The translations under genes were made by a program, and so were the position numbers. Shown here one piece after another: positions 30,045-42,824 of a stretch of 64,000 nt of DNA; the first letter of the stretch is position 1, and every line of letters begins with the position of its first letter. A model generated the notes under the pieces. That model was not told the origin of the DNA. It worked only from the letters and a program-made list of their open reading frames with translations, and ran no database searches. The DNA is taken from IMG/VR virus record IMGVR_UViG_3300028394_000052, positions 34,798-98,797 of that record; one strand, 5' to 3'. Source of the stretch: a virus.

Positions 30045-30343
30045 CAAATAATAGTGGAAGATATGTCAATTTAAACTTTTTTATAGAAAAAATTTGACTT
30101 ATCCATAAAAATATAGTACTTTTGAAATTGTTGGGTATATTTATTGTTTCAGTCAGAAATGACGGACATCCCCAAAAAAAGTTTCATAATATATATTTGA
30201 CAAAATGAGAATTTTGTTTTAACTTTGTGAAACAATTGAGATGAGAGTCTCAAAAAAAATGTCCCACAGACATTTGATTATTTCAAAAAATAGTTTTATC
30301 TTTGTGGGACATTACTTTGAAAGTTCTTTTACTTAAGATATAT
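30045..30343. other. promoter-rich intergenic region before the tRNA
   Basis: No convincing gene is seen here. The region holds a TAACTTTG box (30220-30227), then a TATCTTTG box (30297-30304). A 9-base inverted repeat, TGTCCCACA (30260-30268) and TGTGGGACA (30303-30311), spans the second box. The sequence CTTTGTGAAACAATTGAG after the first box is almost repeated after the box at 30464. Confidence 0.55.
30297..30304 (+). promoter_or_regulatory. class A promoter (TATCTTTG) for the tRNA
   Basis: TATCTTTG lies 39 bases before the tRNA. Its 3' end is one arm of the TGTCCCACA/TGTGGGACA inverted repeat, which could act as an operator or fold into a hairpin at the transcript 5' end. Confidence 0.65.
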
Positions 30344-30416
30344 CGCGAGATGGTAGCAGCGGTAGCTCGCAAGGCTCATAACCTTGAGGTCGGGGGTTCG
30401 ATTCCCTCTCTCGCAA
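30344..30416 (+). tRNA. initiator-type tRNA(Met), anticodon CAT
   Basis: The sequence folds into a cloverleaf. The acceptor stem is CGCGAGA/TCTCGCA, in which position 1 C faces position 72 A, the mismatch that marks bacterial initiator tRNA. The anticodon arm is CAAGG-CTCATAA-CCTTG, the variable loop AGGTC, and the T arm GGGGG-TTCGATT-CCCTC. The D arm (AGC/GCT) has one extra base. The anticodon stem has two, not three, consecutive G:C pairs next to the loop, unlike the E. coli initiator. No CCA is encoded. It heads a transcript region that continues to the giant RNA. Confidence 0.93.
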
Positions 30417-30463
30417 CAAAAAAAAAACTTCACAAAAAGTTTGGTAAATTGAAAACTTTATCT

Positions 30464-30471
30464 TACCTTTG
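30464..30471 (+). promoter_or_regulatory. class A promoter (TACCTTTG) for the giant RNA
   Basis: TACCTTTG is preceded about 20 bases upstream by TTTGG, a candidate -33 element. The downstream GTGAAACAATTAAG nearly repeats the sequence after the box at 30220. Confidence 0.6.
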
Positions 30472-30476
30472 TGAAA

Positions 30477-31349
30477 CAATTAAGAAAACGTTCTTTGAAT
30501 TAAAGATATTGGGCGGTCTATAGTCCATAAAATAAACCATGAAAGTGGTATAAAGTGAATCATTTGGTTAAGTGGTTTGCGGCTTCCGAAAGGGAGCTCG
30601 AGTAGACAAGCGAGATATCGTTAGACCTTGAGTACCGAGGGTGACACTGTAGGGAAACTGGTTTAATGACCAAGCGATGTGGGTCGTTTGGTTGAGGTGG
30701 GAACACCAATAAGAATAACTCGTAGAATTATTGTAAGACACATGGTTATCCGACCATACTATTGCGTGATTCAATATTAAAGTGGGTTTAAAACCGAAAG
30801 GTAAGAGGTCGTACAGGTGGTGCTGGTGATTCCTTCTTAAAGTCTCTACCAAGGGATTTAAGATGAAACAAACTTGAAGTATGAAGATAGGGATATCTTA
30901 GGGAGTAGTTAAGTATCGTGTCGTTCAAAAGATGACATGGCTTGGTCGGCGAACCGCTACTTTCATCATCCACAACCGCAAACTTTGTTAATTGATGTTT
31001 AACAACTAAAAGATACAAGGAAAAGCGTTCGCCAGTCGTGATTGACAGGTCACTACATAGTCATGAGATGTTCATGGCCGTAAAGGGTCCCAAGCCCAAT
31101 ACGATTGTTGTGAAAGTTCTCTAAGTCCGCAAGACATAATCAGGGTGGCAACCTTGAAGAGCAACGAGTAAAAACAGAGTAGATTACGACTTAAGGATTG
31201 GTTAATCTAATTGACCGTGACTGAGAGGTACTTCTCAAAAGGAAGTGGAAATCGGAGTAAACAATAATCTCCTGTAAAGTCTCTCGTAAGAAGGTGTATT
31301 CTCAACCTGAAGCCAAGAACCCCGACAAGAAATTGTTCGGGGTTTTTTG
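30477..31349 (+). ncRNA. giant structured non-coding RNA, GOLLD/ROOL-like
   Basis: About 870 bases between the tRNA and the next gene have no credible reading frame but many local helices. Examples are CTTCC-GAAA-GGGAG (30583-30596), ACCAAGCGA/TCGTTTGGT (30669-30692), GGTG-GGAA-CACC (30696-30707), ATGGT/ACCAT (30742-30757), AAGATA-GGGA-TATCTT (30884-30899) and TTGTTAA/TTAACAA (30985-31005). Several have GNRA loops. It has its own promoter and a strong terminator at 31318-31349, and is richer in G than its surroundings. Size, tRNA adjacency and phage setting match the GOLLD and ROOL giant RNAs. I could not check a covariance model, so the family name is inference and it may be a new class. Confidence 0.8.
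31318..31349 (+). terminator. intrinsic terminator of the giant RNA
   Basis: AACCCCGA...CAA pairs with TTG...TTCGGGGTT with a one-base bulge and a GAAA loop, followed by six T. Confidence 0.9.
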
Positions 31350-32009: not shown

Positions 32010-32435
32010 ATGAAAGAGGGTTTCAACATAGTAAACAGGAGAGCAAAGCATGAATACGAGTTCTTGGACACGTATCAAGCGGGTATGGTCTTGACTGGTG
32101 TTGAGGTTAAATTCATTCGTGATGGTAAGTTATCTTTTGTTGATTCTTATTGTATGTTCCAAGACGGAGAGTTATTCATGAAAAACGTATCCATCTCAGG
32201 TATTGGTAATGATAATATTAAAAGAGACCGTAAGTTACTACTTAGAAAACGTGAGTTAGTTAAACTTCAAAAGAGTTTGGATAAAGGTTTAAGTATTATC
32301 CCATACAAAATTTACCAAGTTAAAAACACCTTCAAGGTTGACATCGTACTTGCTCGTGGTAAAAAACTACACGACAAGAGACAGACCATGAAAGAAAAAG
32401 ATATTCAAAAAGAAATAAACAGAACGCTAAAATAA
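32010..32435 (+). CDS. smpB: SsrA-binding protein SmpB homologue
   Basis: The 141-residue product follows SmpB closely: NRRAKHEYEFLDTYQAGMVL, TGVEVKFIRDGK, a strand with DSYCMF, RDRKLLLRKREL and the C-terminal GKKLHDKRQTMKEKDIQK, which in SmpB inserts into the empty mRNA channel of stalled ribosomes. SmpB brings tmRNA to stalled ribosomes for trans-translation. No tmRNA is seen in the window, so it may use host tmRNA, modulate it, or interact with another RNA. The loop between the second and third conserved blocks is shorter than in bacteria. It is followed closely by a WCT-motif gene. Confidence 0.95.
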   Translation: MKEGFNIVNRRAKHEYEFLDTYQAGMVLTGVEVKFIRDGKLSFVDSYCMFQDGELFMKNVSISGIGNDNIKRDRKLLLRKRELVKLQKSLDKGLSIIPYKIYQVKNTFKVDIVLARGKKLHDKRQTMKEKDIQKEINRTLK

Positions 32436-40870: not shown

Positions 40871-40910
40871 GTCAATACTAAATAAAAATAAACCAAACAA
40901 AAAAATGCTA

Positions 40911-42824
40911 ATGAAAAAAATTCTTCTTACCCTAACGTTCTCGTTATTAACCATTTTTGGTTTTGGGCAAACTACAACTTGTCCAACACCGTCCGCTTCG
41001 GGTGTTTACATTAACTTGGACACTTCGTATTTGGCAGGAACCGTTGTTCAAGGTTTTACAAATGTAGATTTATGTTTTTACAATAATACCTCAACAAAAA
41101 TTACTGCATTCCAATTTAGAGTTTTCTACGATAACTCAGCATTCTCAGGTATTGATACCATAACATCTTTGAACACATCTTTTGCTCAAAATCTGAAGTA
41201 TAGTGTAAATCAATCCGCAGGTCATGCAACAATTACTATGACCTATACGGGTAGTTTGTCCACATTTGAAATATCTTCAGGTCCAATGATTAGATTGAAG
41301 TTACGTCACGTCACAGGATTTGCATCACTTACATCAATTGCGAACATGACTTTTGGTACCGTATCAACATATCCAGCAATCGCTGCTAAACAAGATGGTA
41401 CAGACAATACATTAACTCTACAAAACTATGGTGGTGTTATTGCTCCTCAAACAATGTCATTCAAAGGTACTTTTACCAACGTGACTGGTTCAGGAGCTAA
41501 AAACCTTACAGTTGCTTTGGAGAAGAAACTTAAACCAAGTGGTTCATGGGTTCAAGTGACAAGTCAAGTTACAAATAAACAAGGTAAGTTTGCATTCAAA
41601 GACGTGTCAATTGATACTACAGGTTACTTTGTAAGAATTAAAGTACAAGGTGATACTATGAGTGTTGGTAATGTAATATCCACAGCTGATGCACAAAAAG
41701 TACAGGACTATGTATTAGGTACACAAACACCAACAGGTTTTAATTTCTACGCTGCTGATGTTAACGGCGATAATAACTTAACTATCTCAGATGCTTGGGG
41801 TACATTTGGTAGAATTTCAGGTAGGTTCTCTGCATGGCCTAACAGTGTAAAAGATGTTAAATTCTTTACTGTGGCTCAATACAATACAATCAATAACTCA
41901 TCTACTAACTATACATCAACAATTGCAGGAGCAACTAACTTTACGTTTGATATTGTTGCGGGACAACCTGACTCAGTTACTTACTATGTTTTAGTACCAG
42001 GTGATGCGAATGGAACAGGTTATAAAATGGCTCGTGTAACTCCAATAGAAGTGTTAATTACACCTCAACCAGGTGTTGAAAATCAAATTTATAACGTAAT
42101 TGATAGTAGAGTTAAATACGATTTTCCAACAACAACTATTGAAGTTAACGTACCAAGATTAACAGTACAAGAAGGTAACTTAGTTAATGTACCTGTTAAG
42201 GTTTTAACTAACGGGGATAAACTAGGTTCATTACAGTTTGGGTTAAAATACAACGATACATTACTTGAGTTTAAAGGTGTTGAAACAAAATCGGCAACTT
42301 CAAGTTGGGTGTCATACTTAAACACAAACGACAATCAAATTGATTGGGGTGGGTTCGATGTAAATAACCACTCTAAACCACTTGTTGATGGTGATGAGGT
42401 TGTAACTTTACAATTTCTCGCTAAAAAACCACAGACAGAATGGACAGTTAGTCCCTTATGGACAACAAACAAATTTGCAGGAAACAATCAATGTAAAGAT
42501 TTAGAAATCACACCAACAAATGGAATTATCCAAGTATATAAAATGTCTATGGGTGGTGATTTAACAGGTAACGATGAAATAATGGTATCACCAAATCCAA
42601 CTGATGATGTGACAGCAATTACTTTTAAAGTTAAAGAATATGGTCCAGTTAAACTTTCAATTAAAGATTTAATGGGTAGAGAATATCAAGTTGTTTTGGA
42701 CAGTTCAGTACCAAAAGGAGAATATTCATATATGGTTGATTTAGGTAACTTATCACCAGGAGTTTACGTGGCAATGTTAAAAAGAGTTGACAAGAACATC
42801 GCAACAAAAATAGTAGTACAATAA
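40911..42824 (+). CDS. secreted cohesin/dockerin-like protein with T9SS sorting domain
   Basis: The 637-residue product has a signal peptide (MKKILLTLTFSLLTIFGFG), a first beta-sandwich and a carboxypeptidase-regulatory-like repeat. A dockerin-like segment (DVNGDNNLTISDAWGTFGRI, near 283) comes next, then a cohesin-like domain (VNVPVKVLTNGDKLGSLQFG). The C-terminal 78 residues match the type A sorting domain of the type IX secretion system (SPNPTDDVTAITFKVKE ... GVYVAMLKRV ... KIVVQ). T9SS is found only in Bacteroidota and moves proteins across the outer membrane. A phage product with this tag would be secreted or displayed on the infected cell. The start could also be 40905. Confidence 0.88.
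   Translation: MKKILLTLTFSLLTIFGFGQTTTCPTPSASGVYINLDTSYLAGTVVQGFTNVDLCFYNNTSTKITAFQFRVFYDNSAFSGIDTITSLNTSFAQNLKYSVNQSAGHATITMTYTGSLSTFEISSGPMIRLKLRHVTGFASLTSIANMTFGTVSTYPAIAAKQDGTDNTLTLQNYGGVIAPQTMSFKGTFTNVTGSGAKNLTVALEKKLKPSGSWVQVTSQVTNKQGKFAFKDVSIDTTGYFVRIKVQGDTMSVGNVISTADAQKVQDYVLGTQTPTGFNFYAADVNGDNNLTISDAWGTFGRISGRFSAWPNSVKDVKFFTVAQYNTINNSSTNYTSTIAGATNFTFDIVAGQPDSVTYYVLVPGDANGTGYKMARVTPIEVLITPQPGVENQIYNVIDSRVKYDFPTTTIEVNVPRLTVQEGNLVNVPVKVLTNGDKLGSLQFGLKYNDTLLEFKGVETKSATSSWVSYLNTNDNQIDWGGFDVNNHSKPLVDGDEVVTLQFLAKKPQTEWTVSPLWTTNKFAGNNQCKDLEITPTNGIIQVYKMSMGGDLTGNDEIMVSPNPTDDVTAITFKVKEYGPVKLSIKDLMGREYQVVLDSSVPKGEYSYMVDLGNLSPGVYVAMLKRVDKNIATKIVVQ

Follow-up and report, generated by a model that had tools for sequence, protein, structure and literature searches.

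The assembly formed by GOLLD ranks among the largest RNA-only assemblies known. Its env-38 representative, a marine RNA encoded downstream of a Met tRNA, was found by cryo-EM to form a 14-mer cage (Kretsch et al. 2025, PMC12286853). In env-38 the 5′ region comprises nucleotides 1–420 and the 3′ region 421–833, with a disordered linker at 497–538; the 5′ region of GOLLD is known to be less conserved, and the central dinucleotide of a self-kissing loop is reported to switch between GC and CG (PMC12286853). Ribosome binding in pull-downs and a rise during lysis have been reported for GOLLD, as cited in the same article (PMC12286853). ROOL, also a giant phage-borne RNA found near tRNAs, forms an RNA cage as well (8-mer; PMC12286853).

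The leaders of rRNA operons and CRISPR arrays share with the locus described here the order promoter, boxA, long untranslated RNA. The boxA of E. coli is necessary and sufficient to form the rRNA antitermination complex, which may also aid rRNA folding (PMC10250234), and transcription of CRISPR arrays is raised by boxA (PMC7862264). The present locus lies in a 64,000-nt stretch of viral DNA (the window), part of a 98.8-kb virus record that contains one GOLLD.

Identity of the RNA and Layout of the Locus

A covariance-model scan of the window against Rfam matched the GOLLD model RF02032 over its whole length (model positions 1–416) at 30901–31308 on the plus strand, with a score more than twice the cut-off of 150 bits. 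A second, 5′ domain occupies about 30500–30900 and is joined to this 3′ domain, so that the virus-borne RNA exceeds 800 nt in total (about 830 nt, in two covarying domains) and follows a tRNA gene that ends 60 nt 5′ of the transcript. The features of the locus are as follows.

30297..30330 (+): −7 box TATCTTTG (30297–30304) and boxA-like GTTCTTTT (30323–30330) before the tRNA; motif conservation in clusters
30344..30417 (+): initiator-type tRNA-Met(CAT); ARAGORN; C1/A72 mismatch, GGCTCATAACC anticodon arm
30440..30471 (+): Bacteroidota-type promoter of GOLLD (TTTG, N20, TACCTTTG); TAnnTTTG conserved upstream across clusters
30490..30498 (+): boxA GTTCTTTGA (antitermination signal); 70/75 clusters, same 9-mer in Bacteroidota rRNA operons
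30504..30900 (+): GOLLD 5′ domain (cap domain by homology); all full-length relatives, 15/16 helices covary at p < 1e-4
30901..31308 (+): GOLLD 3′ domain, Rfam RF02032; 324.1 bits, E 4.8e-92
30955..31026 (+): segment with variable linker (about 30977–31018), closed by helix 30948–30954/31027–31033
31319..31349 (+): intrinsic terminator; fold −20.3 kcal/mol, z −5.6, then a run of T
32010..32435 (+): smpB (tmRNA-binding protein), a neighbor and not necessarily part of the unit; Pfam PF01668, E 1.3e-44

Because the whole of RF02032 is covered at 324 bits, the RNA is a member of the known GOLLD family. The earlier note had proposed a GOLLD- or ROOL-like RNA or a new class; GOLLD stood, and the Rfam match ruled out the other two. 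A new giant class could have claimed the 5′ half, which matches no Rfam family, but a less conserved 5′ region is a known trait of GOLLD (PMC12286853) and the 3′ half fits the entire model; ROOL, whose fold and sequence are unrelated to the GOLLD of the window, had no Rfam match there, and either identity is now next to impossible. Apart from GOLLD, the sole family above cut-off in the window was tRNA, at 30344–30416, and none of the tmRNA, RNase P and intron families reached it, in line with what the note had reported. The rest of the 98.8-kb record, which may be a fragment, yielded no tmRNA and no second tRNA with ARAGORN and Rfam. A weak mir-754 match before the tRNA lay far below cut-off and was discarded.

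The outward features for which this stretch had first been singled out were all recovered. It is indeed G-richer than its surroundings (24.5% G against 18.2% in the rest, above the 99th percentile of stretches of equal size), its predicted fold is more stable than that of shuffled sequence by 4 sd (20 shuffles only), and several hairpins carry GNRA caps. The promoter attributed to it is present, of Bacteroidota type, as is the strong terminator at its end, which a simple terminator scan did not list; the tRNA gene placed 60 bases before it is the tRNA-Met(CAT), 60 nt before the start that the note had given. The stretch also holds up as non-coding: forward frames are open for no more than 36–42 aa, with longer runs on the other strand only, and since in relatives the longest open run may be as short as 48 aa or as long as 129 aa, no conserved coding frame was seen at the level of run lengths. 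A hidden protein gene, which the note had named as an outcome that would refute its proposal, was rejected on this basis. The transcript probably spans about 30479 to about 31345.

Relatives, Covariation, and Likeness to env-38

Relatives were collected by pattern scans of IMG/VR followed by iterated nhmmer, which gave 169 loci with the RNA in viral contigs of up to 385 kb; of the patterns run on viral contigs, the first and the third hit mostly by chance, and the 5′-domain pattern gave only chance matches in genome contigs. Full-length copies at 128 of the 169 loci form 76 clusters at 95% identity, with pairwise identity down to 55%. Both domains are present in all 128, and they occur together also in loci recovered by the 3′-domain pattern; at every single-domain locus the RNA runs off the contig end, which means that no 3′ domain with enough contig around it lacks its 5′ partner. 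Against annotated phages, blastn found two partial relatives only, in uncultured phages of 635 and 642 kb, both exceeding the Rfam cut-off; both of these huge phages also encode SmpB. None of 248 Bacteroidota genomes had a GOLLD match, but as a control set likewise gave none, this blank is no sign that GOLLD is absent from such genomes.

For 65 aligned representatives a consensus structure was predicted, and the null for covariation was a set of simulated alignments in which the substitutions seen were replayed on the tree. Thirty-seven pairs covary at E < 0.05, 30 of them inside the predicted structure, and combined p falls below 1e-4 for all but one of the 16 helices of the 5′ domain and for 13 of the 15 elsewhere; these combined values are rough, as pairs are treated as independent, and for random stacks the 0.1% quantile lies at 3e-5. 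Nearly every helix of both domains thus has tree-aware support, the outcome that the earlier note's proposal of a structured RNA called for. Three further elements lie outside the nested prediction: the helix 30948–30954/31027–31033, which closes the linker (p 1.7e-17), a pseudoknot 31048–31053/31217–31222 (p 2e-7), and a long-range helix 30679–30684/30968–30973 (p 5e-9) that joins a 5′-domain hairpin loop to the segment before the linker. A predicted helix 30510–30514/31027–31031 has no covariation support and is probably wrong; an apparent pairing 30649–30653/30845–30849 does not covary.

Compared by published geometry rather than letter by letter, and with the 3′ domain starting at 30901, the RNA fits env-38 almost exactly in size, domain borders and linker position. 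Both contain the full Rfam domain, have a 5′ domain of about 420 nt and a 3′ domain of about 410 nt, and lie downstream of a Met tRNA. Because size, domain borders and linker position match, copies of the RNA are likely to assemble into a closed cage, as those of env-38 do. The loop at 31128–31132, which seemingly corresponds to the self-kissing loop, reads CGCAA in most relatives and is UCGAA-like in 8 of 64; a GC/CG switch of the reported kind thus seems to recur in relatives of the window RNA, and by analogy it favors cage assembly. The available part of the env-38 article makes no mention of a boxA leader, of initiator identity of the tRNA or of a Bacteroidota phage setting.

Promoter and boxA Leader

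The motif TAnnTTTG, which we take to be the −7 box of Bacteroidota promoters, occurs no more than 200 nt upstream of the RNA in nearly all clusters; in a sigma-70 scan, sites were no commoner than in shuffles. Usually downstream of this promoter stands the 9-mer GTTCTTTGA, the boxA of rRNA leaders. The 300 nt before the RNA hold an exact copy in 70 of 75 clusters, whereas Markov shuffles predict 0.32; its background elsewhere in the same loci is about 0.006 per stretch. The promoter precedes boxA by at most 90 nt in 61 of 75 clusters (spacing 11–90 nt, mode 34–36 nt), and the distance from boxA to the GOLLD body ranges from 9 to more than 100 nt. Bacteroidota rRNA operons likewise have boxA downstream of the promoter of an untranslated RNA, and the 9-mer is identical. 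Among 28 such operons, sampled across the phylum to which a Bacteroidales genome belongs and hence compared at phylum level rather than with the exact host, it lies within 500 nt before 16S in 13, after 16S in 17, and in either place in 21; about half of the 16S leaders tested lack the exact 9-mer, and most of those carry a copy after 16S.

The phage loci hold 28 other copies of GTTCTTTGA, and 8 of these stand no more than 600 nt upstream of a tRNA or tmRNA gene; for four the distance is 14–30 nt. Since boxA also stands before tRNA arrays and tmRNA, it may be a general mark of the stable RNA units of these phages. In the flanks of L364, L395, and L413, boxA was seen 14–25 nt before tRNA arrays and a tmRNA.

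Being transcribed and close to the RNA start, the 9-mer could be taken for a conserved part of the promoter or of the GOLLD fold, but its variable distance from both the body and the promoter and its recurrence upstream of tRNAs and tmRNA, as well as in the leaders and spacers of rRNA, make such a reading very improbable. Read as boxA, its presence in 70 of 75 clusters suggests that the phage borrows the host rRNA antitermination machinery for GOLLD synthesis. As an arrangement of sequence elements, the construction of GOLLD as an rRNA-like transcription unit is well supported; its function we infer from that arrangement, and the unit differs from boxA-led rRNA and CRISPR units in that its product is a giant phage RNA. 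Provisionally, the boxA leader of GOLLD seems unreported: no paper in the searched literature, which did not extend to the 2009 discovery paper, supplements and most subscription papers, treats GOLLD and boxA jointly, and co-occurrences look like chance word matches. The earlier note mentioned neither the leader nor the initiator type of the tRNA.

In many relatives, though not in the window, a leader of 50–100 nt separates boxA from GOLLD; its ends, TTATCC..TTCAG and CTGATAA, could pair.

The host of the phage is probably a member of the Bacteroidota, to judge by the type of promoter, the match of boxA and the Por secretion tail that one window protein carries. The tail, a Bacteroidota sorting signal, belongs to a phage protein with a cohesin domain encoded at 40905–42824. 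Few window proteins had PHROG matches.

The Adjacent tRNA

The tRNA upstream of GOLLD combines the anticodon CAU with an unpaired 1:72 position, the latter being a mismatch in 40 of 45 distinct linked tRNA-Met and a weak pair in the other 5; non-adjacent tRNA-Met have a G-C pair there in 6 of 9. Classical initiators have three G-C pairs in the anticodon stem (29–31:39–41). The window tRNA and 37 of the 45 linked ones have A-U at 29:41, and because only two of the three pairs are G-C we use the label initiator-type. With an initiator covariance model built from these same tRNAs, so that the split is not independent proof, complete linked tRNAs score 74–96 bits (90 bits for the same tRNA in relatives) and other tRNAs at most 69, the exceptions being three divergent linked tRNAs at 43–44 bits and a second one at 56.

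Counting a tRNA as adjacent within 700 nt upstream or 120 nt downstream of the RNA, 36 of 73 assessable clusters have an adjacent tRNA-Met, 3 another tRNA and 34 none. The three divergent linked tRNAs were left out on account of their scores, which puts the initiator type at 33 of the 39 clusters with an adjacent tRNA; it occurs on either side of the RNA. The 34 clusters without a tRNA mean that it is not obligatory in cis, and a role as obligatory cis partner was rejected. This tRNA has a promoter and a boxA-like site of its own in most clusters: in the 29 with an upstream tRNA, TAnnTTTG is found within 200 nt before the tRNA in 28 (4.3 expected) and the boxA-like GTTCTTT[GAT] in 20 (0.7 expected). 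No relevant paper on a link between GOLLD and initiator tRNA was found in the searched literature (the 2009 discovery paper and supplements lying outside its scope), and the association provisionally seems unreported there.

Several variations were seen among relatives. In L193, L057, L204, L350, L340, and about 20 others, a conserved element of about 70 nt with the core GTACAACCAGCGCATGACGTGGATAGGTGAC sits between boxA and the initiator tRNA, just upstream of the latter; its ends pair and vary together (GATTAC..GTAATC, TTCTACCC..GGGTAGAA), and it has no Rfam match at E 0.01. In the close relatives L010, L029, L048, L051, L111, L172, and L180 the tRNA before GOLLD scores only 22–41 bits, as if decaying. 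In L342, L379, and L413 a divergent tRNA-Met-like gene begins 13–16 nt after GOLLD, leaving no room for a terminator, so that 5′ processing of this tRNA could set the GOLLD 3′ end.

Neighboring Genes and Other GOLLDs

Rfam-confirmed GOLLDs of Acinetobacter, Mycobacterium, and Streptococcus phages have no boxA match nearby; boxA is thus a feature of the present clade and was rejected as a trait of all GOLLDs. In roseophage DSS3_MAL1 the order is GCTCTTTGA, tRNAs including an initiator-type one (83.5 bits), GOLLD, tmRNA; the Acinetobacter GOLLDs lie within ordinary tRNA arrays with other tRNAs. Within the present clade, tmRNA lies 0.15–2.3 kb from GOLLD in six loci, and smpB is downstream of GOLLD in 5 of 76 clusters, the window and four others. 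In the window phage the SmpB gene directly follows GOLLD, and no tmRNA was found in the 98.8-kb record. Judged by gene order, GOLLD keeps company with translation RNAs; the recurrence of translation genes is suggestive within the GOLLD-bearing loci from which it is drawn. Protein neighbors gave no lead on function.

These neighborhoods could reflect genomic housekeeping, in which phages group their untranslated RNA genes, boxA serves all of them, and the content of the GOLLD cage has nothing to do with translation, or the cage is a decoy or compartment. The boxA copies before tRNA arrays and tmRNA, the clusters without an adjacent tRNA and the ordinary arrays around Acinetobacter GOLLDs fit such grouping, but random grouping predicts neither the predominance of the initiator type, on whichever side the tRNA lies, nor its reappearance in the roseophage GOLLD cluster; we give housekeeping somewhat less than an even chance.

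Discussion

Taken as a whole, the locus is best explained, with high confidence, as a GOLLD gene, in a phage that probably infects Bacteroidota, built as a small rRNA-like transcription unit. In the mechanism proposed from the action of boxA elsewhere, binding of NusB and S10 to boxA would convert the polymerase of the host to the rRNA antitermination complex, allowing the long untranslated RNA to be made without being cut short by Rho, perhaps with help in folding. Copies of GOLLD would then assemble, as those of env-38 do, into a closed cage that surrounds the variable linker, and the cage would serve phage translation late in infection by holding or protecting tRNAs, initiator tRNA among them, or other translation parts.

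That the cage holds or protects translation components late in infection is our preferred specific reading, put forward tentatively and with low confidence; we hold mere grouping of RNA genes, with some other task for the cage, to be no less likely. A more far-reaching proposal, which we consider unlikely, is that Bacteroidota phages run a dedicated rRNA-like program for untranslated RNAs, in which boxA would recruit host NusB–S10 antitermination to drive the GOLLD cage, the initiator tRNA and sometimes also tRNA arrays and tmRNA. The cage would physically handle the initiator tRNA of the phage and so give the phage control over translation initiation late in infection. Host defenses that cut tRNAs, a general idea in the literature (PMC10264068), could be a motive for a phage to carry an initiator tRNA.

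The boxA leader predicts high, Rho-resistant and perhaps chaperoned synthesis of GOLLD, and a small mutation there would offer a means of lowering the amount of full-length RNA. In many of these phages the search for a cargo or partner can be focused on a single molecule, the linked initiator tRNA, and boxA, if general for phage stable RNAs, would be usable for finding new ones. Together, rRNA-like transcription and a frequent initiator tRNA neighbor, across about 75 distinct relatives, make the role of GOLLD easier to test.
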